Positions 2,398 through 60,516 of a DNA stretch of 64,000 bases are shown here, in pieces. Numbering within the stretch: position 1 is the first letter of the stretch; every line of letters starts with the position of its first letter. The translations under genes were made by a program, and so were the position numbers. This stretch comes from an uncultured Latescibacterota bacterium (GTDB taxonomy: Bacteria > Latescibacterota > UBA2968 > UBA8231), in NCBI GenBank assembly GCA_958295495.1, contig OY282352.1:5402049-5466048 (forward strand), given 5' to 3'. Below the pieces are notes generated by a model. It made no database searches. It had not been told where the DNA came from and saw only the letters and a program-made list of their open reading frames with translations.

Positions 2398-3621
2398 TCA
2401 GCGAGCGCGCGATTTTTCTGCGTGCTGTAGGAGTATCTGTACGGATCTGAGGTTGTCGGCGAACGTGCGGTTTGAGGAGTCCAATTCGACTGCCCGCTCA
2501 AAGGCCTCCATGGCCTCTAGCCTATTCCCCGAGAGCAGTCTGACGGTGCCGATCCCATTGTGGGCGAGGGCGTAGGTGGAGTCGGCGAGCAACGCTGCTC
2601 GATAGGCCCGGGCCGCCTCTGCGGGTCGCTTCTGCTGCAGCAGAAGGTTTCCCAAGTTGTTGTGGGCGGCGGCCAGTTCGGCATCTCGTGAGATAGCCTG
2701 TCGGTAGAGCTGAATCGCTTTGTCCGTCTCGCCCCGTCTCGAATACAGGCGAGCCAGTGCCTGATAGAGAGCCGGATCGGTGGGGTCGTGGCGGATCGCC
2801 TCGCGGTACTTGGCGATGTCCGTGTCGATTGCTCTCAGCATCTCGAACCGACGCAACATGTTTTGCCCACTCTCCTTCTGCCCCAGCCGCATCAGACAGT
2901 TGGCCAGATTGAAGTGCGCCTTCGCATGGTAAGCATTGAGCTGAATGGCCCTCTCGAGATGCTGGCGAGCACTCGTGAAGTCCTTGGCGGCAAGCTGTAG
3001 CGCACCTAAGTGTGCCCAAGTGTTTGCGTGGGTCGAGTCGATCTGCAGCGTTCTCTCCAGAATCGCTTTGGCCGCGGCCGGCCGCCCCTGCTTCCCCAGC
3101 AGGTAGCCTAGCTGGTTGCGTGCCTCCACATCGTCGGGACGGATTCCCACCGCAATCTCCAGCGATTCGATGGCGCCGGCGTAGTCGCCTCGCCGTTCCC
3201 GCAGCTGCGCCAAAGCCTTGTGGGCGGACTGATATCCGCTGTCGGCCGCGATCGCTCGCGCCATCAGCTCTTCTGCCTCTTCGTGCCGTCCTGCCGCAGA
3301 GCGCACGGAGGCCAAGTTGTAATGGGCTGCCGCGTACTCGGGCTTGAGGGATATCGCTCGTTGGTACGACGCAGCGGCTTGGTCGAGACGGCCCTGCCGC
3401 GCCAGATTGTTGCCGAGATCGTAGTGGATGACCGGGTCCCGTGGCTCTAGCTGGGCCGCACGTTGCAGCAGCAGGATCGCTTCGGCGGATTCACCGCGAG
3501 CCGAGTGCTCGAGTGCGCTGTCGAGGACGGCTCGTGCGGCTTCTTGCCGCCTAAGTGCCTGTTTTTCGGGTACAGGCCCCTCGCAGGCACTCAGTAGGAA
3601 GAAGACAAAAACGGCAGGCAT
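2398..3621 (-). CDS. TPR-repeat lipoprotein of surface locus A
   Basis: A 407-residue protein. It opens with a short hydrophobic signal ending in the lipobox LSAC at about residues 10-13, so it is probably lipid-anchored. The rest is tetratricopeptide repeats with the usual pattern (A-x-x-x-L-G at helix A, A-x-x-x-Y/F at helix B). The repeats form an N-terminal block, a short non-TPR linker around residues 240-255, and a C-terminal block. TPR arrays bind other proteins, so a scaffold role at the membrane is likely. It lies 24 bases downstream of the parvulin lipoprotein, the same order as the paralogous pair at 46242-49408, and the linker region is shared with that paralog. It is the last gene of the minus-strand run. 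No enzymatic domain is visible. Confidence 0.85.
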   Translation of the reverse strand: MPAVFVFFLLSACEGPVPEKQALRRQEAARAVLDSALEHSARGESAEAILLLQRAAQLEPRDPVIHYDLGNNLARQGRLDQAAASYQRAISLKPEYAAAHYNLASVRSAAGRHEEAEELMARAIAADSGYQSAHKALAQLRERRGDYAGAIESLEIAVGIRPDDVEARNQLGYLLGKQGRPAAAKAILERTLQIDSTHANTWAHLGALQLAAKDFTSARQHLERAIQLNAYHAKAHFNLANCLMRLGQKESGQNMLRRFEMLRAIDTDIAKYREAIRHDPTDPALYQALARLYSRRGETDKAIQLYRQAISRDAELAAAHNNLGNLLLQQKRPAEAARAYRAALLADSTYALAHNGIGTVRLLSGNRLEAMEAFERAVELDSSNRTFADNLRSVQILLQHAEKSRAR

Positions 3622-3645: not shown

Positions 3646-5253
3646 TCAATTCCGGGCATCGTCTTCGCGAGCACCCCAAGCGGTCAGTACGGAGCCCAGC
3701 GCGTCTTCATGGACCACGATCTCGTCGGCAAAGTCCCCGCGGAGTTGGACGAGCAACGAGTCCATCCTCTGGTGCTCGGCACTCAGGCGGAGGATTACTT
3801 CAATGTTTCGTTCCACCGCCTCATAGGGTCGCGCCGGTGTCTGACTCTTTTCGGCGATACGCAGAACGGAATACCCGCCAGGTACTTCGAGAGGTCCGAG
3901 GAGCGCACCCACTTCCGAGTCGAGAGCGAGGGGCGCGAGATCCCCGAGGAGCGGGTTGTCTCTCGTGACGAGCCACATTGACCCGCCTCTCTTTTTCGTC
4001 ACCTCGCGAATGCTGTGTGCCCGTGCGAGGGAGTCGATGGGGACACCCGCCTCGGCTTGGCCGCGGAGTCGTTGTGCCAGAGTGAGGTCCGCGACGAGCA
4101 CTTCATCGACGCGAACCGTCGGACGTGGACCATACAGCTCAGGGTGTTCCTCGTAGTACGCCCGTTTCTCGGCATCCGACACCTCAATACGTCCAACGAC
4201 GACCCGACGGAGGCTGTCGATCATCATTTCTTCCCTCAGCGCATTGACCTGATCGCGCACCCCGGGTTGACGGTCCATGCCACGACGCTTGGCTTCCTCA
4301 ACGACCAGGCGATCCCGGGCCTTCTTGTGCAACCAGCTTTGAGGATCGGCCTCAGCCGCGGCCAAGTCGATGTCGGAGGACAATAGCTGGCCGCTCGCCC
4401 AAGTGCAGAGCGGGTCCGACGCGGGGCGGTCGCCGGCCAGTGGCGCACAGACTAGGCCATTCGCCTTCGCCAAGCTGTCGGCGAAGGCCTCGAAGACGCG
4501 AGTCCTTTCGCGTACGCGGAACTCCTTGAGCACAACATCCCAGCGGCTCGCAATGTCGGCGGGGCGGCGATCGACAAGGCGAAACACGTGAACCCCGTAG
4601 CGGGAGGTCAGAGGTTCCGGGTAGGTTTGACCAGGCTCCAGAGACAGCAATTGCTCCCTGACCTCTGGGAGCACTTGGGATACAGACATGTAGCTAAAGT
4701 AGCCCCCCAAGTGCCCGGTCTCGTGGTGGATCGAACGTTCGACAGCGAGAACATCCAGCGGCTCTCCTGCAGCGAGGGCCTCGAGGACACTCCACGCATC
4801 GGCCTCATTTGTCAGCATCGCGTGCTGGAGCAGCACCTCTTCGGTGAACCCTCCTTCAAGGGCGAAGGTCTGGATGCCTGACGTGTCGATCCCCGCATCG
4901 ACAGAGACCGCGTTGAACAGGGCGCGCCAGACGAGTTTGCTCCGTAGCTGCTCGAGAGCAGCTACGATTCTCGACGATGCGGCCAGCTTCCTGCGTTGTC
5001 CCTCCATCACCAGAAGCTGTCTGTCTATCATCGCATTGAGTAGCTGGCGTTTCGTGTCGAGATTGGCGGGATCTTTGCCGCGATGGGAAGAGGCAAGAAG
5101 CTTCGTCGCCATCTTGGTGTATGCCTCGACATCGATCGCATCCCGGCCGATGATGGCGACGACGGTGGGCTTTGGCTCGTATTGTTCGGTCTGTTCGCAG
5201 GCCAGCAGTCCCGCTGTCAGCAAGATAATGGCGCGCGACAAAATTCTCATCAT
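3646..5253 (-). CDS. Tandem-parvulin peptidyl-prolyl isomerase lipoprotein (SurA/PrsA-like), locus A
   Basis: A 535-residue exported protein. The start chosen is the ATG at 5253, which overlaps the stop of the upstream barrel gene (ATGATGA overlap, 5250-5253); a second ATG follows at once. The N-terminus is a signal peptide with lipobox LLAC. Next comes a SurA_N-like helical region with the motif LNAMIDRQLLV, then two parvulin-like domains. The first includes GHLGGYFSYM and RYGVHVFRLVDRRP; the second includes RGGSMWLV and GGYSVLRIAEK. Such proteins assist folding of exported or outer-membrane proteins. Position between the barrel gene and the TPR lipoprotein suggests a dedicated chaperone for that barrel. 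Catalytic activity of either domain is not certain; PpiC-type domains often act only as chaperones. Confidence 0.82.
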   Translation of the reverse strand: MMRILSRAIILLTAGLLACEQTEQYEPKPTVVAIIGRDAIDVEAYTKMATKLLASSHRGKDPANLDTKRQLLNAMIDRQLLVMEGQRRKLAASSRIVAALEQLRSKLVWRALFNAVSVDAGIDTSGIQTFALEGGFTEEVLLQHAMLTNEADAWSVLEALAAGEPLDVLAVERSIHHETGHLGGYFSYMSVSQVLPEVREQLLSLEPGQTYPEPLTSRYGVHVFRLVDRRPADIASRWDVVLKEFRVRERTRVFEAFADSLAKANGLVCAPLAGDRPASDPLCTWASGQLLSSDIDLAAAEADPQSWLHKKARDRLVVEEAKRRGMDRQPGVRDQVNALREEMMIDSLRRVVVGRIEVSDAEKRAYYEEHPELYGPRPTVRVDEVLVADLTLAQRLRGQAEAGVPIDSLARAHSIREVTKKRGGSMWLVTRDNPLLGDLAPLALDSEVGALLGPLEVPGGYSVLRIAEKSQTPARPYEAVERNIEVILRLSAEHQRMDSLLVQLRGDFADEIVVHEDALGSVLTAWGAREDDARN

Positions 5254-7889
5254 TGACCGGTTCCAAGACCCGCAAACACGTCCACGAAGATCATCGTATT
5301 CGTGTCGGCATCTTCTCCACTGACGCTGCGTCGCGTCCACCGCATGCCGATGTTCGCGGTCAGCTCGTAGCCCAGATACGCCGCCTGATTGGAAAACTGC
5401 GATGCCAGAGTCAAGCGACTGAAGTCATCTTGGTAGTCAACCGCACCGCCTTCAGGGCGGCTCTTCAGGTTGTTGAAAAGCTCGTATTCGGTGCCAAGAC
5501 CGAGAGTCAGCTTAGGGGAGATGTGATAGCTGACGAGAAAGAAGAAAAGTTCCGCAAGGTCGCGCGTGCGGCGCTCGCGCGGGTTGGTCGGCGTGCGAGA
5601 AGAAAATCGCTGCTTCCACTGAGGCCACAGGAGCACAGTCGGCGTTGCCCAGAATTGACGATCTGCCTTGCTGATTAGGCCCAAGAACCTCTCATCCTGC
5701 GTTCCCTGCGCCGCATCCCCCTGCTGATTGTAGGCGTCGTACTTGAGCTTCGTCTGGGTCGTAACTAACGGATTCCAATCTACTTGAAGGTAGAGGGTGT
5801 TGATGAAGGTATCCTGCGCGATCAACGGATCGCTAAAGTCCTGCAGCGTGCCAGTAGAGAAGGCCGGCTGCACCCATTGGATGAGATTGTCGGGGATGTC
5901 ATCCTCGACTTTGCGGACGAACTCCATTAGCTGGATCGACAGACCACGCTGCGGATACTCCTTCTGCAGCGTCAGCAGACCGTAGGTGGAGACCGCCCGG
6001 CGGTCGCTGGAGTGCTGTTCCATCCGCGAGCGCCCCAACATGAGGCGGCTTTTCGGCATCAGTTCAACACCGACGTAGAGGTTGTATCCCTTGCTGTCCC
6101 GCTTGTACGGGTAATCCGGTTCCGTGTCGTTCTCGAAACGGTCGATGATGGTATTGTTGTTCATGTCAGTGCCGAAAAGGAATTCGGGCGAATCGACGTG
6201 GTAGCGGAAGAACGGCTCGCTGTAATCGGGCTGGTTGTTCTGATTCTGATTGAAGTCGGAGATGAAGTCTTGGTTCTCGTCGAGGCCCGGAAACACCTCC
6301 CGATCGGGGAACTGATTCTGGTTTGGAAACAGGGCACTCAGATTCGCGCTGCGGCGAATCCAGTCCGGGAAGCGATCTTGGTCGTCGTTGTCGTCGACGA
6401 GTTCGTAGAGATAGTTCTCCTCGTTCTCGTAATCGACGAAGCCTTGCGAGTCGGGGATGAACATAGACGTCGAGTACCCAGGCTCAATGCTGAAAAGCTC
6501 CCCGTATCCGAAAAAGGGGTACGCGATCTGAGATGCCGTGGCGTAGTACGCCTCGGACTCGTCGTGAGCGAGCGCTTGGTTGCTGCGGATGGTCTGGTTG
6601 GGGAACCGTCGGTTGCGCCGATTGCTCACGTACTCAGATCGGAGGTTGAAACCCCTCACATCGCTGATTGCGAGGTTCACCCCCCGCAACTCATTGCTCG
6701 AAGGGATCCCGTACTGAAAGCGGATAAATCGCTGGTTGGAGGCGTCGGTAATGTTGCCCTGCGCTTGGGCGACGGGCAGGAAGGCGGGTTCCAGCGTCGC
6801 GTTGGTCTGCAGGTTCGATGCGACTTCTACGAGGTAGTCGTTGGCCACTACTAGCCCCACCTCGATTCGCTCGATCTCCCGGAAATCGGTGATCTCCTCA
6901 TCGGGACCCGGCCGGAAATCCGTCTCAATGTTATACGTCAGGGTGACCGTATTGGAACCGCTGGCTTCTAGCAGGCCCTCGCGTGCGACACCCCCTTCGA
7001 TGATCGGGTCGATCTCGGGATGCTCGACGCCGTCGATGAAGATCTGCTCGCGGAGAAGCAGTGCGCCGCCGACGCCGTCCTCCGGTGAGTCGTCTGACAA
7101 ACGCACGATCAACCGTTGAACATTTCCCGCATTCAGGCGACCGCCGAGGACGCCACGCAGCGAATTTTCGTCGAGGGAGAGCGTCGAGTTCTGGTGAAAA
7201 GTCGTCAGATAGCTTCCCCCCAATGTCGCGAAATCGCCGACGGCCATGCTTCCGTTCAGGCCGAGTAACTGAGTGAAGGTCGTTTGCCGCGCCGGTCCTT
7301 GGTCGACGGCGATGGCCACGCGCCCGGGCGAATCTGCCCGCGCCGCCAAGACGCTCACTCCGTACTTATCGGTCTGGAAGTCCCACTGCAGACCGTCGAA
7401 AAGCGGTTTGGAGAAGGTGAGCGGCGTCATCGTGGAGCGAATGCCCTCGCCGATGGTCAGGGAGGTGTGGAACTGCCCCTTGGCCCCGGAGACCACGATG
7501 AGACGATTGAACCACTGGCTGAAATTTGGATCTTTCCAGATTCCGCTACCGAAATCCCGCGGATACTCATTCGTGAAGTTGTAGATGTTCCAGCCCTTGG
7601 TAAAGTAATTGCCGTAGAGGTCGTAGTAGCGGTCGCCTTCGAGCTCGGTTCTCACATATCGCCGGTACTGGTTCCGAGCATAGTTGGTGTAAGTACTCCC
7701 CTGCCAGCCATATAGTGAGTAGAGTGCTTGGGGCAGATACCACTTCCGCAAAGTTGGAACCAGGGTCTCAGGACTGATTCGGGCCCCTTCAGTGATGTAG
7801 GGATTGAACAGACCAACTTCGACTGCTCGGCCTGGCGTCCCTTGCAGTAGCAGAACCGCTAGGATGGAGCCGACCCCGTTGCGCTTCAT
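5250..7889 (-). CDS. Large outer-membrane/surface barrel-like protein, locus A member of a three-paralog family
   Basis: An 879-residue protein with a signal peptide (MKRNGVGSILAVLLLQG) and start ATG at 7889 behind GGGAG. I do not recognise it as a named family. It shares long collinear motifs with the proteins at 51846-54629 and 54629-57547. These are an N-terminal KWYLPQ..L..YGW...Y.NYAR motif, TLTPLTFSKP, LSDDSPEDGVGGA, and an acidic Asp/Asn block around residues 495-605 (DDNDDQDRFPDW, DENQDFISDFNQN, DMNNNTIIDRFEND, PDYPYK). The last 250 residues alternate polar and hydrophobic positions like outer-membrane beta strands and end FVDVFAGLGTGQ. The acidic loops resemble calcium-binding D-x-N-x-D loops. 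Unlike its paralogs it lacks the YGNRLGR motif after the signal peptide. Outer-membrane location is inferred, not shown. Confidence 0.7.
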   Translation of the reverse strand: MKRNGVGSILAVLLLQGTPGRAVEVGLFNPYITEGARISPETLVPTLRKWYLPQALYSLYGWQGSTYTNYARNQYRRYVRTELEGDRYYDLYGNYFTKGWNIYNFTNEYPRDFGSGIWKDPNFSQWFNRLIVVSGAKGQFHTSLTIGEGIRSTMTPLTFSKPLFDGLQWDFQTDKYGVSVLAARADSPGRVAIAVDQGPARQTTFTQLLGLNGSMAVGDFATLGGSYLTTFHQNSTLSLDENSLRGVLGGRLNAGNVQRLIVRLSDDSPEDGVGGALLLREQIFIDGVEHPEIDPIIEGGVAREGLLEASGSNTVTLTYNIETDFRPGPDEEITDFREIERIEVGLVVANDYLVEVASNLQTNATLEPAFLPVAQAQGNITDASNQRFIRFQYGIPSSNELRGVNLAISDVRGFNLRSEYVSNRRNRRFPNQTIRSNQALAHDESEAYYATASQIAYPFFGYGELFSIEPGYSTSMFIPDSQGFVDYENEENYLYELVDDNDDQDRFPDWIRRSANLSALFPNQNQFPDREVFPGLDENQDFISDFNQNQNNQPDYSEPFFRYHVDSPEFLFGTDMNNNTIIDRFENDTEPDYPYKRDSKGYNLYVGVELMPKSRLMLGRSRMEQHSSDRRAVSTYGLLTLQKEYPQRGLSIQLMEFVRKVEDDIPDNLIQWVQPAFSTGTLQDFSDPLIAQDTFINTLYLQVDWNPLVTTQTKLKYDAYNQQGDAAQGTQDERFLGLISKADRQFWATPTVLLWPQWKQRFSSRTPTNPRERRTRDLAELFFFLVSYHISPKLTLGLGTEYELFNNLKSRPEGGAVDYQDDFSRLTLASQFSNQAAYLGYELTANIGMRWTRRSVSGEDADTNTMIFVDVFAGLGTGQ

Positions 7890-7943: not shown

Positions 7944-10295
7944 CTAGTAGGCTACGCTCACCAGCAGGGTTTCGGCCTCCGGCCCGGCGTCTGCCGGCAC
8001 CTCTACGCGGCAGACATAGATCCCAGGTTCCGCCGGCCGATCATCGACCATCCCATCCCACACTAGCTGCTGCGTCTCCCCTCGCTGGCCGGAGACGACC
8101 CGGAGCAAGTGCCCCGCCAAGTTGTAGAGCCGTAGCTCAGCGGCGACTCTGGTCCGAAATAGATCGAAGGTAATGCGCAAATTGTCGTTGATAGCGTCGC
8201 CGTTGGGCGTGATGACGCGGCTCGATACGACGAGATTGCGGATAGTACCTCCTGTGGCTATGTCCGGTAGGAAGACGAAGAGGGCCTCTCGGTCGGTGCG
8301 ATCGAACTCGCCATCGCCGTCGTCGTCAATGTCCGGCGGCCTCACTGCTTGCAGATTATCCGGTTGTGTGGAGTTGGCCACGGATGCGAGGAAGCGGGTG
8401 GGATTGCTCAGCGGTCGCGCGGTGAACATCACCTCTACCGAATCCCGCAGTACGCGTCGGGGCATGGCGACAACGAGCGTGTCCGCGGTGGACTCGACAG
8501 AGCCTTCGCTCTCTTCACCATTGATGCGCAGCGACACATCCCGCACTTCCCTTGGCACGGGCAGAATCACGCGATCGAAGCCCTGGTCTCTGGCCGTAAA
8601 GGTCGGTTGCAGCACGTAGCGAAAGTCCTGCCACTCACCGGCGGTCGCCTCCCGTGGATAGATCGCGGCCTCAACGCCTTTTTGCACCAGTGCTTCGTCG
8701 AAGTGAAGCGTCACTGACTTGAGGACCGGAGTGATTTTAGGATCGTCGGTCTCCAGACTCACCCGCATTCGCAATAGCTGTCTGGGGGTGGGCGACCGAA
8801 AGGGCTGGCCCGACGAAAGGTGCGGCTCACTCCAACCACTCCAGTCCGCACCTTCCTTGGGCACTTCGACGATCTCACCGCGGACCACTTTGGGCAGCTT
8901 GTTGTACTGCGCCTCCGTGATCGGCTCACCGTTCTTCTTGAAGAAAAACTGCTCCACATCGAGTTCATTGCCCGTGCGAGTCTGCACGGTGATTCGGGTC
9001 CCCGGCGGGGTGTCGGCATCCCACGAGATCCCCGTGATGCTCTTGGCCGCCCCGAGGTTGATGAAGTCGGATGTCAATGCCGCTTGTGCGGGGTAGCCAG
9101 CGGAATAGATGAATACTTCTAACATGATGTATCCAACTCTTCTGTTCTCGATGTCCCGGTGGTTCCAAAACAGATAGCGGCCGACCCGATCTGCTAGCTG
9201 GTGGTCAAAGACATAGCGTCTCGGTGCCCGGCTGTTGTCAACCAGCGAGACGCGCGTGTAGTCGAACGGGCTGCGGAATGGATCGTCTCGGGCGATCGGC
9301 GTTCCGTCTGTCATCTCTAGGTTGTAGCCGGTGTTGGTACCGCCGATTCCGAATGTGGTTCGACCTAGCCGATCGGGAGGCCACTGGTAGAACACGATTC
9401 GGCTGATGTGGAAGAGGGCCCCGAGGTCCCACTCGAACCACATCCCGCCATCCTGCCAGAAGCGATTGAGGGTATTTGAAATCAAGGGCCATACATTGTC
9501 AACGGTTCCATCGCGGATTTCTTCCACTTTTTTGAGTCCCGAGCGGATCGCCCCCCCTCGATCAAAGGTAGTCAACGCGATATTATCGCCGATCGCGGTC
9601 ACCTCAATCTCCGCCAGTGCCGCGTCTTTCCCAACCTCGTGGGGAAGGAAGCGGATGTAGTGTACGGGCATGAAGTCCAGCGACTTGCCCGTCACCAGAT
9701 TCTCGCCGCTTGCAATGTCTCCGAAATCCTCAATCGACAAGGGAATGACGATCTCTCCCAACTCGTTGGGCTCGGTGGTCGTGAAGACGCGATGGAACCG
9801 CCAGACATCTGCGGACGAAGACACTGTGGAACCTTCGCTGACAAAAACCGAGAAATCCCGGAAGGGGCGTAAGCCGAGGGTGTCTGGAAAGACCAAGCGG
9901 ATCTCCTCGAGCAGGACCACGCGGCCCAGGTCGATGTGTAGCCAGGCATTGTCGGGATCGGCACCAGCGTCGGGCTGCCACCACGTGGCGCGGTCGTTAT
10001 CGGCGAGAAACCGGGCGTCGCGGTTGTTCGACTGTGCCGTCAGCCCCCCGAAGACCTCGCCACTTTTGCGGGTGGGATGCGAAAACAGCGACATATCATC
10101 CATCGGATCGGTGTCCGTTCCATACCACCCCAGCTCGACCTGCCCGTCTGGCCGCAATTGAATGGCCCCAATCGGGCTCGTCCAAGCCTGCCAATCGCTG
10201 AGATGATCGAAGCGAAATTCATCGGCCGCCGCGTGACTGGACAGCAGCCATGCGGCCATGGCGGTGGTGCATAAGCTTGTTTTTGCCATAGTCAT
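7944..10295 (-). CDS. Exported discoidin-like protein with CHU_C/FlgD-type C-terminal tail (locus A, third)
   Basis: A 783-residue protein. The start ATG at 10295 has AGGAG six bases upstream; a second ATG two codons on is an alternative. After the signal peptide comes an F5/8 type C (discoidin-like) pattern, LADNDRATWW...HIDLGRVVLLEEIRLVFP, then a second similar module near residues 275-395 and a WSGWSEPHLS motif. The last 90 residues form an Ig-like tail: TPNGDAIND, LRLYNLAGHLLRVV, VWDGMVDD, EPGIYVCRVEV, ending LLVSVAY. The PNGDxxND start recalls CHU_C tails and the WDG...PGxY part recalls FlgD_ig/T9SS type A tails. Discoidin domains bind glycans or surfaces. It lies 54 bases upstream of the barrel gene in the same transcript direction. 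It lacks the N-terminal V-x-x-I-G-G motif of most of its paralogs. Confidence 0.75.
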   Translation of the reverse strand: MTMAKTSLCTTAMAAWLLSSHAAADEFRFDHLSDWQAWTSPIGAIQLRPDGQVELGWYGTDTDPMDDMSLFSHPTRKSGEVFGGLTAQSNNRDARFLADNDRATWWQPDAGADPDNAWLHIDLGRVVLLEEIRLVFPDTLGLRPFRDFSVFVSEGSTVSSSADVWRFHRVFTTTEPNELGEIVIPLSIEDFGDIASGENLVTGKSLDFMPVHYIRFLPHEVGKDAALAEIEVTAIGDNIALTTFDRGGAIRSGLKKVEEIRDGTVDNVWPLISNTLNRFWQDGGMWFEWDLGALFHISRIVFYQWPPDRLGRTTFGIGGTNTGYNLEMTDGTPIARDDPFRSPFDYTRVSLVDNSRAPRRYVFDHQLADRVGRYLFWNHRDIENRRVGYIMLEVFIYSAGYPAQAALTSDFINLGAAKSITGISWDADTPPGTRITVQTRTGNELDVEQFFFKKNGEPITEAQYNKLPKVVRGEIVEVPKEGADWSGWSEPHLSSGQPFRSPTPRQLLRMRVSLETDDPKITPVLKSVTLHFDEALVQKGVEAAIYPREATAGEWQDFRYVLQPTFTARDQGFDRVILPVPREVRDVSLRINGEESEGSVESTADTLVVAMPRRVLRDSVEVMFTARPLSNPTRFLASVANSTQPDNLQAVRPPDIDDDGDGEFDRTDREALFVFLPDIATGGTIRNLVVSSRVITPNGDAINDNLRITFDLFRTRVAAELRLYNLAGHLLRVVSGQRGETQQLVWDGMVDDRPAEPGIYVCRVEVPADAGPEAETLLVSVAY

Positions 10296-10304
10296 TGCAA
10301 ACTC

Positions 10305-12374
10305 CTAGTAGACGACGGGTACTGTCAGTAGTCGCTGTGCGGTCTCCCTTTGGGTATTCACCTCGACCAACAGCAGATACAGGCCTGGAGGGACTAAGGT
10401 GCGGTTATCATCGAGACCATCCCAAGACACCTGCTGAGTCGATCGGCCCCGATTCTCAGCGGCCAAGAGCGCAATATAGCGTCCGGCGACATCGTAGATT
10501 TTTACTGTCACGTCTGCTTGGTTGACGAAGAGGACACTGAACTCGACTCGGATTTCGTCATTTACCCGGTCCCCATTCGGGGTCAGCACCGACTGCATGA
10601 GGCGCACACCATCGAGAACGGTCGTCCGCGCATCGCGCGAGAAAACCTGCAGACTGTTGGTAGGGACATCATCCCTCGCATTCCCCCCGTTCACCGACTG
10701 GGGCAGGTTGTCGCTGGCAGAGTCGATGACCTCCCCCGCGAAGATCGTGGAAGAGGTGAAGAGAGAGGTCTCGAGGTCAATGCGGACGGGGATATCATTG
10801 CTGCGCGACACTCGGTTGGAGGTGAAAAAGACAAAAAGCTCGCCGTCGATGGCGATCCCATCCCCGGGCCACACGCTGTCGGGAACCACCGAGACGAGGT
10901 CTGCATCGCCCATCCTCAGCCCCTCAAAACGAGTGCCAAAGGGGACCGTCAGTCGCACGGCATCAAATCCCTGTGAATCGCTGGCAAAGTCTGCCGCGAT
11001 GTCGAAGTATAGCTGACGGCGCTCTCCAATGGGGAATTCCGCCGGCTGCGCCTCAGTCGTCGTCGCCGTTGGGGCCGCATCCGCCAAGGAGACCTCGCCG
11101 ACGAGCGACGAAGCGAGCAATGGGGAAACTTCAAACTGTAGTGAATCGAGGCGACCGATGGACAGCACATCGTCTGTCAGGAACGTCGCCCGGAACTGCA
11201 AATACTGGCGGCCGTCCGGGGATCGGTTCAACTGATTAGGGGAGCGATAGGGTGAAGACCACGGTGACCAGTTGGTCTCGTCGTCGAGGATGACACTGCG
11301 CTGATTGGGATAGCGGACGGAGAGACTCTCCCGTCGGGGCAGGGCGGCGCGCCGCCATTCCGACTCTGTTACCTCCTTGTCCCGCCCGAAATCATCTACG
11401 ATGTAGTGGGACAGCGGCGTGTCGTCGGTGCCGGAGCGCGTCTCCAAGAGCAGTCGGGCGACGCCTTCGGGGTCTTCGACGAGCGCGTCCGCTTCCCGGT
11501 CTCGTCGAAGCGAGCGGAAGGAGTAGGTGATCTCGCCTAAGTTGACGGGCTCATCGAGCGGAATGGCAGTGGAAACATAATGTACGTTCGTCGGAACGCC
11601 CTCTCCGTAGGCCTGAAACTCGGCCATGCTGTAAAACTGGTCCGCCAAACTCAGATCGAGTCGGATGAATCTGGCCGGCTGCAACGGAAAGCTGACATCG
11701 ACTTGGCTTTTCGCGTTGGACTTGGTTTCCTCGATGACGGTGGCAAGCGTCTTCTTAGGAATCGGCTCGGAGCCTTCGAGCAAAAATTCCTCCGCCTCGT
11801 TCTGTATCGAGAGACGATACGCCTGTGGCGACCCCTGTTTGTTGGGGATGCCTCGCTTATCGACGCCCGATTGCCGAGGGAAAAATAGGATCCGGTTGAC
11901 CGGCGTCTCTAAGACTAGATCGAAGGTCCAAATTTCTTCCTGCAGGCGCAGGATCTGGTTGAAGGTACTTATCGGCCCGTCCCCGACTAGCTGACGCAGT
12001 GAGATCGCGGTCTCGGGATCGCCGTCGATGATCACAGCCTCCTCGCGGCTGTACCCACCGTGCCAGAAACGTGGGTCAACGCCGGCTTGGAAACCAAAGG
12101 CCTTGCCTGTTGTCTGTCCCTCTGCCCAAGATAGGCCGAATATATTGGCAAAGACCCCGGGGCCGACCATGATGTTCTCCCATGGCCGCAGCTCTCTGGG
12201 CTGCAAGGCGCCCGGAGCGGTCGTGTCATCGAGGGCGACGGCCTCCTGACGCACCTCGGACCACGAGAAATCCCCCGCCGCCCCGCCGATCTGCACCACG
12301 CGGGGCTGACCGTAGGCCGCAACGGCTGCCGCGACTATCAGGATCGTTGCGGTAAGTACCATTCGCGTACGCAT
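10305..12374 (-). CDS. Exported discoidin-like protein with CHU_C/FlgD-type C-terminal tail (locus A, second)
   Basis: A 689-residue exported protein. The ATG at 12374 follows GAGGAAG. Signal peptide, then the N-terminal motif RVVQIGG shared by most paralogs in this window. A discoidin-like section follows (VIIDGDPETAISLRQ, FDLVLETPVNRILFFPRQ), then WSPWSSPYRSP, then a domain with a GFDAVRLTVP motif. The tail includes LTPNGDRVND, VKIYDVAGRYIALL, VSWDGLDD and VPPGLYLLLVEV, and the protein ends LLTVPVVY. Only nine bases separate it from the next gene, so it is part of one operon. Probable location is the cell surface or outside the cell; ligand unknown. Confidence 0.75.
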   Translation of the reverse strand: MRTRMVLTATILIVAAAVAAYGQPRVVQIGGAAGDFSWSEVRQEAVALDDTTAPGALQPRELRPWENIMVGPGVFANIFGLSWAEGQTTGKAFGFQAGVDPRFWHGGYSREEAVIIDGDPETAISLRQLVGDGPISTFNQILRLQEEIWTFDLVLETPVNRILFFPRQSGVDKRGIPNKQGSPQAYRLSIQNEAEEFLLEGSEPIPKKTLATVIEETKSNAKSQVDVSFPLQPARFIRLDLSLADQFYSMAEFQAYGEGVPTNVHYVSTAIPLDEPVNLGEITYSFRSLRRDREADALVEDPEGVARLLLETRSGTDDTPLSHYIVDDFGRDKEVTESEWRRAALPRRESLSVRYPNQRSVILDDETNWSPWSSPYRSPNQLNRSPDGRQYLQFRATFLTDDVLSIGRLDSLQFEVSPLLASSLVGEVSLADAAPTATTTEAQPAEFPIGERRQLYFDIAADFASDSQGFDAVRLTVPFGTRFEGLRMGDADLVSVVPDSVWPGDGIAIDGELFVFFTSNRVSRSNDIPVRIDLETSLFTSSTIFAGEVIDSASDNLPQSVNGGNARDDVPTNSLQVFSRDARTTVLDGVRLMQSVLTPNGDRVNDEIRVEFSVLFVNQADVTVKIYDVAGRYIALLAAENRGRSTQQVSWDGLDDNRTLVPPGLYLLLVEVNTQRETAQRLLTVPVVY

Positions 12375-12390
12375 AAATACTTCCTCGCTA

Positions 12391-14277
12391 CTAGTAGGAC
12401 ACCGCCACTATCCGGAGACGCTCAAACGTTTCGGTCTGCGTTTCGACGCGCAGTCGGACGATGTAGTGCCCCGGAGGCAATTTGCGGGCCTCGGTCCATC
12501 TGGCTAGGTAGCTGCCTGCCGCCTGATCCTCTTGCAGGAGGGTATGAACGAGCCGACCCGATAGATCGTGTACCGAGACGCGTACTTGCGCTGGTTCGAT
12601 GAGGAATACGAGGTCGTACTGCACGGTTAGGTCGTCGTTTCGCTCGTCTCCATTCGGGGTCACAACACCGGCCCCCAACTCGAATCGGCCGAGTGGGTCC
12701 CCGAGAGAACCGAAGACGACGACGGAGTTGGTGCCGAGCAGGTTGGTGGCATCACCGGGAGCAACCCGCTGCGGAACTGCACCGGCTGAATCCAAGAGCC
12801 AACCCTCGAACAGGGTTGTGTACCGCAAGGGCGTTGCTGTAAACCTCACAAAGAGCGTGGCGTTGCTCGCGGCCGTGATTGGGCGGCTCGGGAAGAATAG
12901 AGATATGCCGCTGTCATCGAAAAAGATGCTGTCGATGGCCACTGCCTCTCGGTCCTCGCCGACCGACACCGATTCCAACTGAGCAGTGCCCGGCGTTGCG
13001 ATGCGCAAACCATCGAATCCATCATTGCCGGACAAATCCGCAGCCAAGGCGTACTCAAAGGTCGCCGGCTGCCCCGTAGCGACGGTAGCCACACCTGCCG
13101 GCGGGAAGGGATCGCCGACGCGAACGACCTCGGCTCGCGTCCTTAGAGCGAGGGGAGACGAGTGGGTGAATTCGAGTGCATCTATTCGGATTACGTCGGT
13201 CGCAGTACCTTCGAAGAAGAATCTGAACTGGAAGAAGGGCCGCGGCATCGGCAGAAAGTCGAGGCTAATCTCGTAGGAGCCCGTCGAATCAATTGTCACC
13301 GGATTCGACCACGCACTCCAGTTTGCTGCATCGTATCTCGTCGTGCGCTCGCGGTCGATGAGGTTCTGGTACGCCTCCTCTGAGATCTCCGTCTCACTGC
13401 CGGTTTCGAGATCGATCTGGAAATAGGACTCAGGCGAGGTGTCGTTGCCCGCCCGGACTTGGAACACCGCCTGCACCGGATCGTCCGCAGCCGCGTCGGG
13501 CTCGGTGGATACGCGGGTCGTGTGGACCGTTAGGCGACCAAAGTTGCGCCCACCTCCTCCAGCGAAATCAATGAAGTTGGAGACGTACTGAGCACGGGGC
13601 ACAAACCCCCGGCCGAACACCTCAATCTCGGCGATGTCAAAGGGGTTGGGTTCCAGGGTTTCCAAGCGGATATATCTGACGAGTTGGCGTGGAAACTCGG
13701 CCTTTGTCCGAACCTCGTTGGAAATCTCGACCCGTGTTAGGGTCTCGTAGATCGGCCGCTCGTCTGCTCCAAAAGAGCGCCCGTCGCTAACCTTGATCTC
13801 GTAGGCCCGCAGGAAGGCGGTGCTATCTTCCGGGTTGGGAAAAAAGGCAATCCGTTCGACGGGAAACGAGGCACCTAAATCGAAGACGAAGATCCGGCCA
13901 TCCTGAGACTGGCCAGGAATCTGAAATCGCTCCCCAGTGGATGTGTTTGGGTTGCCGTCGATGAGAACGTTATTCGGCTGACCGTCAGCAACGCGCGCCC
14001 ACACCCGGGCCCCGCCCTCGGGGATGAACTCGTCCGGGCCCGTTCCAACATCTGTCCAGCGAACAGCGGCGACGATGTTCTCGTCGGCCGTGAAGCCTGC
14101 CGGTAGCAGCAAATCGGCCGTGACCTGCGCCCCCGCAGCCACTAGCTCCACGCTCTGCCAAGTGTCGCCACCCTGTCCGATGCGCACGGTCTCGATCTGG
14201 CCGCCCGCATCAATGCTCAGGAGAAACGTCAGGACAAGCGGGACGGCTATACCCGCGCGTTTGGCTGTCAGGGGCAC
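12391..14277 (-). CDS. Exported discoidin-like protein with CHU_C/FlgD-type C-terminal tail (locus A, first)
   Basis: A 628-residue exported protein. The start is GTG at 14277, one base after the TGA of the upstream lipoprotein gene and without a clear ribosome site of its own, which suggests translational coupling. Signal peptide, N-terminal ETVRIGQGGDTW (a variant of the V-x-x-I-G-G motif), discoidin-like region with VLIDGNPNTSTGERF and VFDLGASFPVERIAFFPN, then WSAWSNPV. The tail has TPNGDERND, VSVHDLSGRLVHTLL, LPPGHYIVRLRV and the end LRIVAVSY. The WDG signature of the other tails is replaced here by WTEARK, so this tail is slightly divergent. Confidence 0.75.
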   Translation of the reverse strand: MPLTAKRAGIAVPLVLTFLLSIDAGGQIETVRIGQGGDTWQSVELVAAGAQVTADLLLPAGFTADENIVAAVRWTDVGTGPDEFIPEGGARVWARVADGQPNNVLIDGNPNTSTGERFQIPGQSQDGRIFVFDLGASFPVERIAFFPNPEDSTAFLRAYEIKVSDGRSFGADERPIYETLTRVEISNEVRTKAEFPRQLVRYIRLETLEPNPFDIAEIEVFGRGFVPRAQYVSNFIDFAGGGGRNFGRLTVHTTRVSTEPDAAADDPVQAVFQVRAGNDTSPESYFQIDLETGSETEISEEAYQNLIDRERTTRYDAANWSAWSNPVTIDSTGSYEISLDFLPMPRPFFQFRFFFEGTATDVIRIDALEFTHSSPLALRTRAEVVRVGDPFPPAGVATVATGQPATFEYALAADLSGNDGFDGLRIATPGTAQLESVSVGEDREAVAIDSIFFDDSGISLFFPSRPITAASNATLFVRFTATPLRYTTLFEGWLLDSAGAVPQRVAPGDATNLLGTNSVVVFGSLGDPLGRFELGAGVVTPNGDERNDDLTVQYDLVFLIEPAQVRVSVHDLSGRLVHTLLQEDQAAGSYLARWTEARKLPPGHYIVRLRVETQTETFERLRIVAVSY

Positions 14278-14278
14278 G

Positions 14279-15001
14279 TCAGCGTGCCGAAACGGTAGCG
14301 GGTGGCCGGTACCCCTTGAAGACGTCGCGTTGGAACCCGTAGGTCAGGTCTAGGGTCTCCACCGGCTCATCAGCGTAGTTGAAACGAACGGCCATGTCGT
14401 TGACGCGGACGGCTAGCTCGGTCACGTCTGGAGGCATGGGCGGAAATACGATAAAGCCTTCGGACTCTTGGCCGCTGAAGATCATCTCGTCGGCATACAT
14501 GTGGAGACGCAGCAGATCTTCGCGCTCGCGCATGCGCGCATAGTAGTTCCCGGCCCAAGCCAACGCATAGGCTCGGTAGTACTCACTGATTTCGAGGAAT
14601 GTCAGGGGCTTGTAGAAACGCTCGCTGGCGGATCGCAACTCGATTCTAGACGGATCGATCCTGACCTTCGGATACGCATAGTTCTTGACCCTAAGCAGGA
14701 ATACGGTAAATCGCTGGGGCGTAAACGACTCTCCTGGGGGGGTCCAATCACCGAATGTAAAGGGGTTAGTTGACAGTGCGCCGTTGCCCGATTTTGTGGC
14801 GAAACTGCGGTTGAGCTCCGCGTCCGTCATGGGTCGCAGCGCGATATCGAGTCTCTCGAAGACGTAGGCCACCGATCCATCATCATGGACCACCATGTGT
14901 TCGCCTTGCTCGGACTTAGGCTTGGGCTGGAGAGGCCCCGGGAAGTAGCGCCCACAGCCGGACACAATCAGGATCAGCAGGCAGCTACAGAGCACTCTCA
15001 A
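14279..15001 (-). CDS. Hypothetical lipoprotein heading the locus A operon
   Basis: A frame open to 15070 includes a terminator hairpin (15033-15059), so the ATG there is unlikely to be used. The TTG at 15001 has GGAGAG upstream and gives a clean signal peptide with lipobox VSGC. The resulting protein has 240 residues. After the lipid anchor there is a region with SVAYVFERLDIALRPM, then a mixed alpha/beta region ending FPPMPPDVTELAVRVNDM and VETLDLTYGFQRDVFKGY. I do not recognise the family. It is one base from the next gene, so it is probably co-transcribed with the three FlgD-tailed proteins. Confidence 0.68.
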   Translation of the reverse strand: MRVLCSCLLILIVSGCGRYFPGPLQPKPKSEQGEHMVVHDDGSVAYVFERLDIALRPMTDAELNRSFATKSGNGALSTNPFTFGDWTPPGESFTPQRFTVFLLRVKNYAYPKVRIDPSRIELRSASERFYKPLTFLEISEYYRAYALAWAGNYYARMREREDLLRLHMYADEMIFSGQESEGFIVFPPMPPDVTELAVRVNDMAVRFNYADEPVETLDLTYGFQRDVFKGYRPPATVSAR

Positions 15002-15032
15002 AACGATCTCTCCGCGCAGTTTAGATAAAATG

Positions 15033-15059
15033 AAGGGGGGAGGACCGTCCTCCCCCCTT
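15033..15059 (-). terminator. Rho-independent terminator of the CBM9-like gene
   Basis: Perfect 12-base inverted repeat (AAGGGGGGAGGA / TCCTCCCCCCTT) with a three-base CCG loop. On the minus strand it is followed by CATTTTAT. It separates the CBM9-like gene at 15093-15992 from the downstream lipoprotein operon. Confidence 0.8.
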
Positions 15060-15092
15060 AGATGGAACAAGAGCTGTGGAGCGTTTCCCTAC

Positions 15093-22850: not shown

Positions 22851-22891
22851 CTTATCAGCCCAAACGCAAGACCACTTCAAAGGAGGAGAGC

Positions 22892-25375: not shown

Positions 25376-25382
25376 GGCCGTC

Positions 25383-25411
25383 TTGTTTGGGGATAATGGC
25401 GGGGATATATT
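25383..25411 (+). promoter_or_regulatory. Predicted promoter of the methylase/NotI-like operon
   Basis: TTGTTT (25383-25388), 17-base spacer, TATATT (25406-25411), 36 bases before the methylase ATG. The -10 box is part of the 15-base direct repeat, so the cassette may use a promoter inherited from the insertion site. Confidence 0.4.
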
Positions 25412-25419
25412 GAGCGGCC
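25405..25419 (+). repeat. Direct repeat, left copy, flanking R-M cassette 2
   Basis: The sequence ATATATTGAGCGGCC occurs here, 30 bases after the stop of the first CehA-like gene, and again perfectly at 28426-28440, just before the second CehA-like gene. The two copies bracket both R-M genes and nothing else. Confidence 0.8.
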
Positions 25420-25447
25420 ACTATTCACGTCCGCGGAGGGACGCAAA

Positions 25448-28394: not shown

Positions 28395-28425
28395 AAGACC
28401 GTTATGTATGTATGACCGCATCGGA

Positions 28426-28440: not shown

Positions 28441-28464
28441 CTTCACCTTAGAAAGGAAGCTGTG

Positions 28465-42699: not shown

Positions 42700-44342
42700 T
42701 GGGCGCGTTGATACTGTGCGCGATAGGGTGCCTCGTCGGGGCCGCTAATGGGTGGAGCGAGCCGGTTACCGCGCAATTTGTCGATCGGGCGGCGGCCGCC
42801 GGCCTGACGCAGCCCAATGTCTCGGGCAGTGATCAAAGCTACATAGTCGAAGGGATGATGGGCGGTACGGCCTTTTTCGATTACGACCGCGATGGCGACG
42901 TGGATTTGTACGTGGCCAACGGCTCTTCTTTTGCGGGCTTTGCTGCGGGCGTGCATCCGGCCAACCAGCTCTACCGCAACGATGGCGGTCGCTTTGCCGA
43001 TGTGACGGTCGTCGCTAGCGTGGGGGATACGAGTTGGTCAATGGGATGCGCGGCGGCCGATTACGACAACGACGGCCACACGGACCTCTACGTTACCAAC
43101 TTTGGCCGCAATACGCTCTATCGCAACGAGGGCATCGGTCGCTTTGCTGATGTGACCACGGCGGCTGGGGTGGACGATATGGGGTGGGGTACCGGTGCCA
43201 GCTTTGGGGATTACGACCGCGACGGCGACGTAGATTTGTACGTGGCCAATTACGTAGATTTTTCCCTCGACTACGAATCTCCAATACCCTGCCTGTGGAA
43301 GAACGTGAAGGTGTACTGCGGGCCGGTGGGGCTGCTACCGGCTGCAGATGTGTTTTACCGCAACAACGGCGACGGCACCTTTGCGGAGTACGGAAAAGAG
43401 GCTGGCCTACAGGGCACGGCATTCTACGGCATGAGTGCGCTGTTCGGCGACTACGACAACGATGGGTGGCCCGACCTTTTCGTGGCCAACGACTCCACGC
43501 CCAATCTGCTTTTTCGCAATCGCCAAGGCGGCCGCTTCGCCGAGGAGGCGCTCATGGCCGGGGTGGCGTACAGCGGAGAAGGGGTGACGCAGGGGTGCAT
43601 GGGGGCCGCTTGGAGCGATTACGACAACGACGGTCTGTTCGACCTCTTCGTCACCAATTTCGCCGACGAGTACAACGCGCTGTACAGGAATGAGGGCAGC
43701 GGCTTTTTTGCGGATGTGTCTTTTATTGCGGGGATCGGGGCTGCGCCGGCCGAATTGGTCTCGTGGGGTACGGGCTTTTTCGACTACGACAACGACGGCG
43801 ACCGCGACCTTTTCGTGGCCAACGGCCACACCTACCCGCAGGCCGACCTGCCGAGGGTCAACTCCAGCTACGAACAAGCCAACTCGCTGTTTGAGAATAG
43901 GGAAGGGAGGCTGGTGGAGGTGTCGGCCCTAGCCGGTCCGGGCTTTGCCTTGCCCCGCGTCAGCCGTGGAACCAGTTTCGCCGACTACGACGGCGATGGC
44001 GACATCGACTTATTCATTCTCAATCTCAACGGCCCGCCAACTCTGTTGCGCAACGATGGCGACCACGGCAATCACTACCTGCTGGTGCGCGCCGTGGGTA
44101 CGGGGAGCAATCGCGACGGAATTGGTGCGCGGGTGATTATTAGTGCCGGCGGGCAGACCCAGTACGCCGAGGTGCAGAGCGGGGGAAGCTATTTGTCCCA
44201 CAACGATCTGCGGCTGCACTTTGGCTTGGGCAAGGCCGAGCGCGTCGACCGGCTCAAAGTGCGCTGGCCCAGCGGGGTGGTCCAGGTGCTGAGCGACATT
44301 GCCGCCGACCAAGTCCTGACCGTCGTTGAGCCGCGTCAATAG
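42699..44342 (+). CDS. CRTAC1-family exported protein, second of tandem pair
   Basis: A 547-residue protein starting at the GTG that overlaps the preceding TAG by one base, with GGAG just ahead, so it is translationally coupled. It has an ordinary signal peptide, without a convincing lipobox, unlike the first copy. FG-GAP/VCBS loops (DYDRDGDVDLYV, DYDNDGHTDLYV, DYDNDGWPDLFV, DYDNDGDRDLFV, DYDGDGDIDLFI) and a C-terminal ASPIC/UnbV domain (NRDGIGARV, GGSYLSHNDLRLHFGLG, VRWPSGV) are clear. The anchored first copy and soluble second copy could form a complex. It converges with the FlgD-tailed gene and overlaps it by seven bases. Confidence 0.85.
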   Translation: MGALILCAIGCLVGAANGWSEPVTAQFVDRAAAAGLTQPNVSGSDQSYIVEGMMGGTAFFDYDRDGDVDLYVANGSSFAGFAAGVHPANQLYRNDGGRFADVTVVASVGDTSWSMGCAAADYDNDGHTDLYVTNFGRNTLYRNEGIGRFADVTTAAGVDDMGWGTGASFGDYDRDGDVDLYVANYVDFSLDYESPIPCLWKNVKVYCGPVGLLPAADVFYRNNGDGTFAEYGKEAGLQGTAFYGMSALFGDYDNDGWPDLFVANDSTPNLLFRNRQGGRFAEEALMAGVAYSGEGVTQGCMGAAWSDYDNDGLFDLFVTNFADEYNALYRNEGSGFFADVSFIAGIGAAPAELVSWGTGFFDYDNDGDRDLFVANGHTYPQADLPRVNSSYEQANSLFENREGRLVEVSALAGPGFALPRVSRGTSFADYDGDGDIDLFILNLNGPPTLLRNDGDHGNHYLLVRAVGTGSNRDGIGARVIISAGGQTQYAEVQSGGSYLSHNDLRLHFGLGKAERVDRLKVRWPSGVVQVLSDIAADQVLTVVEPRQ

Positions 44343-46237
44343 ACGACGGAGACGAGGCTCTGGTGCCTATTGACGCGGTCGGTCTCTGCGGTGAGGCGGA
44401 CGAGGTAGGATCCTGGCGGCACGAGGCGGCCGCTGGGGGTGCGGCCGTCCCACTCGACAGCAAAGCGGCCACTGGTGGCAAGCCCGTCGTAGATGACCCC
44501 CACCTCGCGGCCGGCGAGGTCGAAGACCGCCAGCTCCACGCGAATCGCATCCACTAGATACAGAAGGTCGTATTCGATCCGCACGGCGTCGTTGCGGCCG
44601 TCGCCATTGGGGGTGAAAGCCGCCGGGTGCAGGGCGAGGCGGCCGATGAGGGGCTGGTCTAGGTTGAGCAAGGCCGTTTGCAGGCTGTTGGTCGCCTTCG
44701 GAGTCACTGGCTGGGCGACTTCAAACGGGCGGGTGCTGTCGCGGATTCGCCCTGCAAAGCGGGTGTTGTACGCGAATACCTCGGCGCGGAAATCGACCTC
44801 GATCCGCTCGCCGGTCCGCTGCTGATCCATGCGCGGCAGCGCAACTTCAAACCCCTCGGCCGGGTGCTGCGCGACGGTGTAGGCGACATCCACCCCGCCG
44901 ACCCGCACGGCCTCCACGGCCTGCACCTGTGCAGTGGTGGCGATGGCTAGGTGGTCGAATCCGAGGTCGTCGGCTGTGATGTGCGGCTCTAGGGAGAAGG
45001 TAAAGAGCGTCGGGGTCAGGGCCGGGGCTTGTAGCGGGTGGATTTGTCCGAGGGCGCGGGAGGCCGGCGGAGGAATGGACGCGCTGAACTGCAAGTAAGC
45101 GAGGTGGCCCATCGCCTCGGTGGTCGAGTGGAATTCGGCCCTAAATTGCGCGTAGCGGCGCAGCCGATCGCCCGGCATCGGCCCGCGACCTGCGGCAAAG
45201 GCAAAGGGTGCGCTCCAGAAGTTCCAGTCCTCGATGTCTGGGGTGAGGCCGACCTGCTCACCCCTTTGTAGGCGGTTGTAGGTGTGCAGGGTAAGCGGTT
45301 GGCCATCGGCGTCGAAGCGGGTGCGCTCATCGCCGCGAAACGTGCGTCGCCAATAGGTGTTGGGGTCGTCGTCGTCTCCCGTGCGCGCACTTAGTTCAAT
45401 GCGGGCCTCGGCGTCGAGATGACCGCTCCAAGTCAAGGCACCCAAGGCGGCTGGTTGGCCCAAGTCGATGATGTTGGAAGTGTAGCGGGAGAAGGCGGCT
45501 GGCCCGGCCCCGTAGATCTCGAATTCGGCGATTTCCCAGATGCCGCGGCTGTTTTCGGGTAACTCGATGAACACCTGCTGGATGGGTTCGTCGGGCAGGG
45601 CTAACTCCATGACGGCTTGGGTGTTCTCGCGCACGTGGTGAACGATGTCGAAGTCGAGCGTACTGTTGCGCCAGCTAACCGCGTACTCGCGGGTGCCGTC
45701 GGCTAGCGGGTCGCCGTCGCTGGTACCCACGATGAAGTGCTCGACAAAGCGGGTCGCCGCAAAGCGCGGGCGCGGATAAAAGCGTACGCGATCGACGAAG
45801 AATCGCCCGCCAAAGTCGAAAACCCAGTACTTGTGCTGGGGGCCATAGCCGGCGACGCGGAGATAGTGCCCATCCCCCAGATAGGCGGTTTCCGGGTCGC
45901 TGTCGAAGATCAGGATATCGTCTTCGTACCACTGCCGCCAGCCGTTCCACTCTAGAACGAGGATGCGGCCACCGAGGGACTCCACGAGCGGCGCCAAGTT
46001 GACCGAGGGAGTTAGCAACAACGGGCCGATGCGTTCTGGCTGCAGCGCGATCCATTGGGCTTGGCCGTGCTGCTTGGGATCAACGGCTTCCCAAGCTAGC
46101 TGTACGAACTCGTACTCGACTTTCAGCGCCGGTTTGGGCAAGTCGGCTCCGCCGATGCGATAGATGGTGAGCGCGTGAGACGGGAAGGCCACCGCAAGGT
46201 AGCAGGCCGCCCAGTAGAGGATGCGTTGGCACGACAT
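44336..46237 (-). CDS. Exported discoidin-like protein with CHU_C/FlgD-type tail (locus B, minus strand)
   Basis: A 633-residue exported protein with a signal peptide ending at SHA. The mature N-terminus LTIYRIGG matches the paralogs at 60517 and 62454. A discoidin-like block follows (LIFDSDPETAYLGDGHY, VFDFGGRFFVDRVRFYPR, GIWEIAEFEIYG), then SNIIDLGQPAALGALTWSG, then a domain with DLGFDHLAIAT. The tail has FTPNGDGRND, LAVFDLAGREVGVIY, EWDGRTPSG, VPPGSYLVRLTA and ends LVSVVY. It lies four bases after the TPR lipoprotein gene, so the order parvulin, TPR, FlgD-tailed protein forms one operon. Confidence 0.76.
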   Translation of the reverse strand: MSCQRILYWAACYLAVAFPSHALTIYRIGGADLPKPALKVEYEFVQLAWEAVDPKQHGQAQWIALQPERIGPLLLTPSVNLAPLVESLGGRILVLEWNGWRQWYEDDILIFDSDPETAYLGDGHYLRVAGYGPQHKYWVFDFGGRFFVDRVRFYPRPRFAATRFVEHFIVGTSDGDPLADGTREYAVSWRNSTLDFDIVHHVRENTQAVMELALPDEPIQQVFIELPENSRGIWEIAEFEIYGAGPAAFSRYTSNIIDLGQPAALGALTWSGHLDAEARIELSARTGDDDDPNTYWRRTFRGDERTRFDADGQPLTLHTYNRLQRGEQVGLTPDIEDWNFWSAPFAFAAGRGPMPGDRLRRYAQFRAEFHSTTEAMGHLAYLQFSASIPPPASRALGQIHPLQAPALTPTLFTFSLEPHITADDLGFDHLAIATTAQVQAVEAVRVGGVDVAYTVAQHPAEGFEVALPRMDQQRTGERIEVDFRAEVFAYNTRFAGRIRDSTRPFEVAQPVTPKATNSLQTALLNLDQPLIGRLALHPAAFTPNGDGRNDAVRIEYDLLYLVDAIRVELAVFDLAGREVGVIYDGLATSGRFAVEWDGRTPSGRLVPPGSYLVRLTAETDRVNRHQSLVSVVY

Positions 46238-60436: not shown

Positions 60437-60474
60437 GGACGGGTAGGTCTTCATTGATCTACCCGTCCTTTTTT
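60437..60474 (+). terminator. Rho-independent terminator of the locus B CBM9-like gene
   Basis: GGACGGGTAGGTC (60437-60449), six-base loop, GATCTACCCGTCC (60456-60468), then TTTTTT. A 13-base stem with one G-U pair. An open frame beginning at 60454 runs through this hairpin, which shows that the next gene starts later. Confidence 0.9.
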
Positions 60475-60516
60475 GTCGTATTTTTTGCATTCCCTCAGTC
60501 AAGTCACAAGGCCGTT

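Follow-up and report, generated by a model that had tools for sequence, protein, structure and literature searches.

Genes and Features of the Window

The window, that is, the whole stretch of 64,000 nucleotides that was analyzed, covers positions 5,402,049–5,466,048 of a genome searched here as a single contig of 5.97 Mb. It contains six open frames whose products end in an Ig-like tail with tyrosine as the last residue, as the initial annotation had described; we refer to these domains as Y-tails. On the reverse strand, they belong to proteins of 783 aa (7944..10295, F5/8 type C-like domain; tail about 7947–8231, VSVAY), 689 aa (10305..12374; tail about 10308–10601, VPVVY), 628 aa (12391..14277, F5/8 type C domain; tail about 12394–12678, VAVSY), and 633 aa (44336..46237; tail about 44339–44632, VSVVY). 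On the forward strand, they belong to proteins of 751 aa (49563..51818; tail about 51519–51815, VGVAY) and 662 aa (60454..62442; tail about 62143–62439, VSLIY). The last of these had been given a start at 60517, and its frame is open from 60454.

Directly downstream of the 7944 gene lies a reverse-strand gene for a protein of 879 aa (5250..7889) that has no Pfam match and belongs to a family of about 900 residues, referred to below as the partner family. Two further members are encoded in tandem on the forward strand, one of 927 aa (51846..54629) directly downstream of the 49563 gene and one of 972 aa (54629..57547), and their products are 37 and 38% identical, respectively, to that of 5250–7889. 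The cluster of the 7944 and 5250..7889 genes also includes a PpiC-type peptidyl-prolyl isomerase (3646..5340) and a TPR protein (2398..3621), both on the reverse strand. A second PpiC-type isomerase (47705..49408, reverse) is encoded upstream of the 44336 gene, with a TPR protein (46242..47708, reverse) between the two. The remaining neighbors are a small protein of the protein family “f9” (14279..15070, reverse), upstream of Y-tail genes, and a member of a CBM9-like neighbor family (59441..60403, forward), upstream of the 60454 gene.

Elsewhere in the window, positions 20215–30951 form an island with an Eco57I-type methylase, a DNA methylase, a NotI-like endonuclease and two related unknown proteins of 827 aa (22892–25375) and 829 aa (28462–30951). 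Positions 33618–39953 hold an open frame of 2111 residues with matches to peptidase M28, FtsX, DUF6785, and DUF6784.

The motifs that had been proposed for the tail hold to a varying degree. All six tails begin with TPNGDxxND, while the middle motif, initially given as YDxxGR, is looser (Y/F/H-[DN]-x-x-G-[RH]), and the WDG that should follow is absent from the 12391 protein, which has WTEARKLPPGHY instead. The tails measure about 95–99 residues, longer than the roughly 85 first estimated. CHU_C (PF13585) exceeds the Pfam gathering score of 27 bits in four of the six proteins (the remaining two reach 23.3 and 19.9), and FlgD_ig (PF13860) exceeds its Pfam cut-off in two. Among 60 Y-tail proteins scanned from the genome, CHU_C matched in 53 at E ≤ 0.001.

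Conservation of the Terminal Tyrosine

The genome was searched with a profile built from the six window tails and four others of the same genome, nine of the ten ending in tyrosine. The Y-tails scored 69–134 bits and everything else at most 57 bits, and nearly all matches in the upper range extend to the last model position. Because of this gap the resemblance among Y-tails is not due to chance, and since the gap is larger than the effect of a single residue, tails with a different end should not have been lost. With 150 of the 262 candidates scored in this search, all Y-tail counts are lower bounds. At least 105 Y-tail proteins were found (104 places taken first, and the fragment 2523282 added once its end had been read), and their last residue is Tyr in 102, Phe in two and His in one, so that the constancy noted in the window extends to the genome without being absolute. 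Extra residues after the profile end are rare: match end and protein end coincide in 101 of 104 places, and the other three proteins are 1, 3, and 11 residues longer. Two frames of 141 and 159 aa (1729510 and 2523282) bear a Y-tail only and are probably gene remnants.

Tyrosine is encoded by TAC in 55 and by TAT in 46 of the 104 places and is followed by TGA (48), TAG (34) or TAA (22). The use of both codons and all three stops indicates conservation of the residue, not just copying through recent DNA duplications. The two preceding alternate positions are constrained as well, with V, L, or I at −3 in 102 and V, I, L, or F at −5 in 104 of the 105 tails. For the neighboring genes 5464194 and 5468067, the first of which is the window tail at 62143–62439, the last 44 residues read are identical, which points to a recent duplication or exchange.

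The tyrosine could be structural, marking the end of the last Ig-like strand in an old paralogous family and carrying no export information, with the proteins leaving the cell by way of the partner or by another route. In a set of 67 tails that share less than 50% identity with each other (mean pairwise identity 35%), the column of the terminal tyrosine is level with W, G, and PGxY; that these other strongest constants are typical fold residues is what such a structural role would predict. However, tyrosine is the last residue in 66 of these 67 diverged tails, and free chain ends are usually poorly conserved. We consider a purely structural role unlikely. The data support the view that the end of the Y-tail is under constraint as expected of a sorting signal, which is how the initial annotation had read its constancy.

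Predicted Fold and Relation to Type A and Type B Tails

An AlphaFold2 model of the 633-residue window protein was computed from six sequences and had a mean pLDDT of 63, with about 80–87 across most of the tail. When it was aligned with VIA-align, the first of 988 aligned chains was PorU, whose signal domain (residues 1056–1157) matched model residues 529–633 with a Z of 13.1, an rmsd of 2.0 over 96 residues and 17% identity. PorZ 686–776 ranked fourth (model 528–633, Z 10.5, rmsd 2.6, 91 residues), and other Ig-like domains were found at Z of about 10. Foldseek with the whole protein returned just multi-domain Ig-like matches with low TM scores. The predicted fold of the Y-tail is thus supported as that of a T9SS C-terminal domain, again in line with a sorting function, and the rank of a T9SS signal domain above general Ig-like domains speaks against a tyrosine that is only structural. 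Excerpts of PMC11285876 describe the two matched PorU and PorZ ranges as uncleaved T9SS domains, a match that suggests, but does not show, that the predicted Y-tails also stay on their proteins.

Y-tails fit neither the textbook type A nor the type B pattern. With the curated type A model (TIGR04183), one of the six window tails exceeds the cut-off (25.9 bits vs. 23), and with the type B model (TIGR04131), none reaches the cut-off of 35 bits (best 24.1). The same genome also encodes other tails, of which we read 33 that are type-A-like, ending in K (14), R (12), Q (3), E (2), D (1), or P (1), and 24 that end in KKTTKLP or a near-variant. A lysine occupies position −6 in 26 of the 33 type-A-like and in all 24 KKTTKLP tails, whereas this is so in at most two of the 105 Y-tails, and any lysine within the last nine residues is found in 28 of the 33 type-A-like tails as opposed to eight of the 105 Y-tails. 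According to PMC10994853, type A tails have an almost invariant lysine close to the end of their last strand that contacts PorV, although its main role may lie elsewhere; we equate it with position −6 by analogy with PMC11285876 and not residue by residue. A sequence search of the PDB with the type-A-like tails returned FlgD, C5a peptidase, PorZ, and PorU and no clear match to RemZ.

The bodies of the eight other-tail proteins that were scanned vary, with FG-GAP repeats, DUF3179, He_PIG, and Calx-beta among them. The KKTTKLP class comprises about 24 proteins, mostly of 700–750 aa, that are clustered at about 490–531 kb, 4.43 Mb, and 5.27 Mb; four of them were scanned, and all have a FlgD_ig tail and three have FG-GAP repeats.

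Y-tail proteins might be ordinary T9SS cargo that is read by PorV like type A, the tyrosine being a local variant of the last strand that is not separately read and the partner acting on the exported protein only after export. The window tail above the type A cut-off agrees with this, as does the statement, in the excerpt of PMC10994853, that type A tail–translocon contacts lack sequence conservation except for the lysine. It is this near-invariant lysine, however, that the Y-tails are missing.

T9SS Genes in the Genome and the Phylum

The initial annotation had found no T9SS core gene in the window and had suggested that the export route may be different. Its further proposal, a search of the genome for SprA and PorV, recovered both above their curated cut-offs, SprA with 617.8 bits (cut-off 200; 2114 aa) and PorV with 238.4 bits (cut-off 90). 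PorU was also found (629.8 bits, cut-off 420). All three genes lie outside the window elsewhere in the chromosome, and porU adjoins porV. A different route owing to the absence of a T9SS was therefore rejected, and a new route is not needed to account for the Y-tails. Close to SprA there is a weak match to the GldK domain (59.3 bits, below the cut-off of 350).

The nearest SprA relatives in named genomes are 85–90% identical and come from MAGs labeled Latescibacterota or Gemmatimonadota, several of which we take to derive from sponges. Among 64 genomes of the phylum, SprA matches were found in 63 and exceed the cut-off in 61. Our literature search yielded no description of a T9SS in Latescibacterota or of a Tyr-ended tail class; PMC11285876 mentions further phyla within this superphylum as potential T9SS holders.

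The PorV family has 12 matches in the genome, seven of them above the cut-off, which together with the presence of PorU would suit a PorV-read cargo. Five PorV-family proteins whose ends were read finish in a phenylalanine strand, e.g., SLNIIF or SLQFRF, with a hydrophobic residue at −3 and mostly at −5, like the Y-tails. The Y-tail end could accordingly mimic the C-terminal aromatic signal of outer-membrane barrels and be recognized by the barrel-assembly machinery or pair with the edge strand of a barrel. We regard this as very improbable, as the PorV-family proteins use Phe whereas the Y-tails use Tyr, and the tail is predicted to be an Ig-like domain and not a barrel strand.

The Partner Family

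The genome contains about 41 partner genes after split matches were joined. Of these, 24 immediately follow a Y-tail gene on the same strand, 10 follow another partner gene, and for seven neither is found within 1 kb. Within 5 kb of a Y-tail gene there are 37 of the 41 partner genes, against a random mean of 6.1 and a maximum of 16 in 1000 trials, while two of the 41 lie within 5 kb of a gene with one of the other tails (random mean 3.6). Seen from the Y-tail genes, a partner lies within 5 kb in 62 of 105 cases and within 20 kb in 89, leaving 43 of 105 with none inside 5 kb. The Y-tail genes of this genome fall into 43 blocks; a partner occurs in 25 of these, a PpiC-type isomerase in 14, and a TPR protein in 18. 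The Flavobacterium translocon, in the excerpt of PMC10994853, also includes an isomerase subunit and a TPR lipoprotein, and we set these beside the PpiC and TPR neighbors by description only.

No Pfam match was obtained for the window members of the partner family, a scan of 27 members against NCBIfam gave no family and a single stray match at E 0.03, and a sequence search of the PDB found no relative. The partner as a relative of PorV or SprA was rejected, with no profile similarity to either. AlphaFold2 with three partner sequences gave a pLDDT of 28, and a simple alternation test for barrels was uninformative (z of 0.5 for the partner, 1.5 for PorV, and 5.6 for SprA). That the partner may be a barrel is only a guess from its size, its putative export signal, and the absence of membrane helices.

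Among 22 pairs, partner distances were correlated with tail distances (r 0.45), but this fell to 0.10 (p 0.18) with the body accounted for, whereas the correlation with the body given the tail was maintained (partial r 0.46, p 0.0005). Co-evolution of the partner with the tail in particular is thus unsupported once corrected for the body. A partner that tracks the body is compatible with a partner–body complex and also with a tail that all partners read alike. It is also in favor of PorV-read cargo with a partner that acts only after export.

A Single Body Family Carries All Y-Tails

With a profile of 40 bodies, 63 of the 65 bodies held out were recovered at E below 1e-10; the two that escaped it are short fragments (43 and 79 residues), and none of 56 proteins with other tails was matched. 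F5/8 type C was detected in 23 of 60 Y-tail proteins in the Pfam scan. By a crude measure of a possible signal peptide, with starts not refined, a hydrophobic N-terminal stretch is present in 86 of 101 Y-tail proteins and in 31 of 34 partners.

Since all Y-tails sit on one homologous body, the constant end belongs to a single, very large family of paralogs and not to unrelated cargo. A portable tag on unrelated cargo was rejected on this ground; the tail is not seen acting as a portable signal. The common body is also what one would expect if the tyrosine were structural.

Distribution Across Latescibacterota

We searched 64 genomes of the phylum and accepted tails at E below 1e-15. Tails were found in 39 genomes, namely all 25 of the genome’s own family and 14 in families f5, f6, f7, f8, and f9. 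The partner is present in the same 39, and both are missing from the same other 25. The distribution of the body coincides with that of the partner, apart from three further, very weak matches (2.7e-6 to 4.6e-5) in genomes that are otherwise negative. SprA matches are found in 24 of the 25 genomes without tail and partner. These 24 argue against PorV-read cargo in that tail and partner act as a unit of their own, although they sit in few families (f2, f3, f4, and f10) and so stand for few independent losses or gains, the number of genomes overstating their weight. Taken with the missing lysine, this leaves us with a low estimate for delivery by PorV alone.

Outside the genome itself, 82 tail ends at 57 bits or more were Tyr in 79, Phe in two, and Lys in one, the ends having been read for mostly the best tail per genome in the own family and for nearly all listed matches in f5–f9. 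None of 13 weaker tails (below 57 bits) ends in Tyr, and three further tails of family f7 all do. Terminal tyrosine is thus the rule in most tails read from five other families of the phylum. In family f7, the body is far diverged, and all six tails read are nonetheless Tyr-ended, which again speaks against a structural tyrosine. The genomes of f7 have 8–14 partner matches each vs. 1–3 tails found.

The order of Y-tail followed by partner is retained in genome families f5–f9. A Y-tail gene was directly upstream of the partner on the same strand in all ten loci read from families f6–f9, which had been picked for holding Y-tails and, in four cases, because the partner had already been seen there. 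CBM9-like, TPR, or small-protein-family “f9” neighbors accompany most of these ten loci, the small-protein family being present at three of them.

Proposed Role of the Y-Tail and Its Partner

We consider it on balance probable that the Y-tail represents a T9SS signal-domain class specific to this lineage, with a surface partner of its own, the two working like type B/SprF pairs. A signal peptide would bring the Y-tail proteins into the periplasm, where the SprA translocon would take up the folded tail. Judged by analogy with type B pairs and by gene order, the putatively exported partner of about 900 residues encoded directly downstream may then help to bring the Y-tail protein to the cell surface and keep it there. 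The last strand with its terminal Tyr-COOH would stand where type A tails have a last strand bearing lysine, and given this replacement, we infer a reader other than, or in addition to, PorV. Several observations count against this reading: the single body family, partner distances that track the body, a partner that neither resembles PorV or SprA by profile nor is marked as a barrel by the alternation test, the Y-tail genes that lack a partner within 5 kb, and the excess of partner matches over tails in family f7.

The terminal tyrosine may itself be read directly. In type A tails, excerpts of PMC11285876 report that a truncation of RgpB by two residues blocks export and that residues added to the end of the PorU tail are tolerated; since such an extension is tolerated, it should not be taken for granted that the free carboxyl group itself is what is read. 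A more far-reaching version is put forward as tentative and is, in our estimate, rather doubtful: Y-tails could be a third functional type of T9SS signal domain, read through the free C-terminal tyrosine by a previously undescribed family of outer-membrane carriers of about 900 residues, which in some Latescibacterota would have expanded until a genome encodes about 40 of them and over 100 cargo proteins.

If this were true, a single translocon would serve separate PorV and non-PorV delivery lines. How the T9SS sorts proteins to different destinations is an open question that has been studied almost only in Bacteroidota, and here one cell offers the contrast of type-A-like tails with mostly K/R ends on various bodies, KKTTKLP tails, and a Tyr-ended class with a partner family. 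The genomes that have SprA matches and lack both tail and partner make the partner a candidate for a new carrier or anchor.

Comparison With Known Systems

The Ig-like domain of FlgD (PF13860) shares with the Y-tail the middle part from YDxxGR to PGxY. FlgD is not known to have signal-peptide export, a TPNGD start, or a fixed Tyr end. Type A tails (TIGR04183, Por_Secre_tail), and especially the uncleaved domains of PorU and PorZ, share the predicted fold and a length of about 95–105 residues, and, in excerpts of PMC11285876, likewise have functional weight on the last strand. They differ in that the Y-tails have Tyr-COOH in place of the last-strand lysine, meet the type A cut-off in a single window protein, and are carried by one body family instead of many.

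A close parallel to the proposed arrangement is with T9SS type B cargo (TIGR04131) and its PorP/SprF-like partners in Flavobacterium and Porphyromonas. The Y-tails depart from it in missing the type B cut-off in all window proteins, in their fixed terminal tyrosine and in often having several genes per partner, and their partner is a protein of about 900 residues for which our Pfam, NCBIfam, and PDB sequence searches found no relative. Type B cargo, in the excerpt of PMC12618676, requires a cognate partner whose gene is commonly located directly downstream. The two systems share a CHU_C-like tail on large, for the Y-tails putatively, exported proteins, a partner gene directly downstream, and many paralogous pairs per genome.
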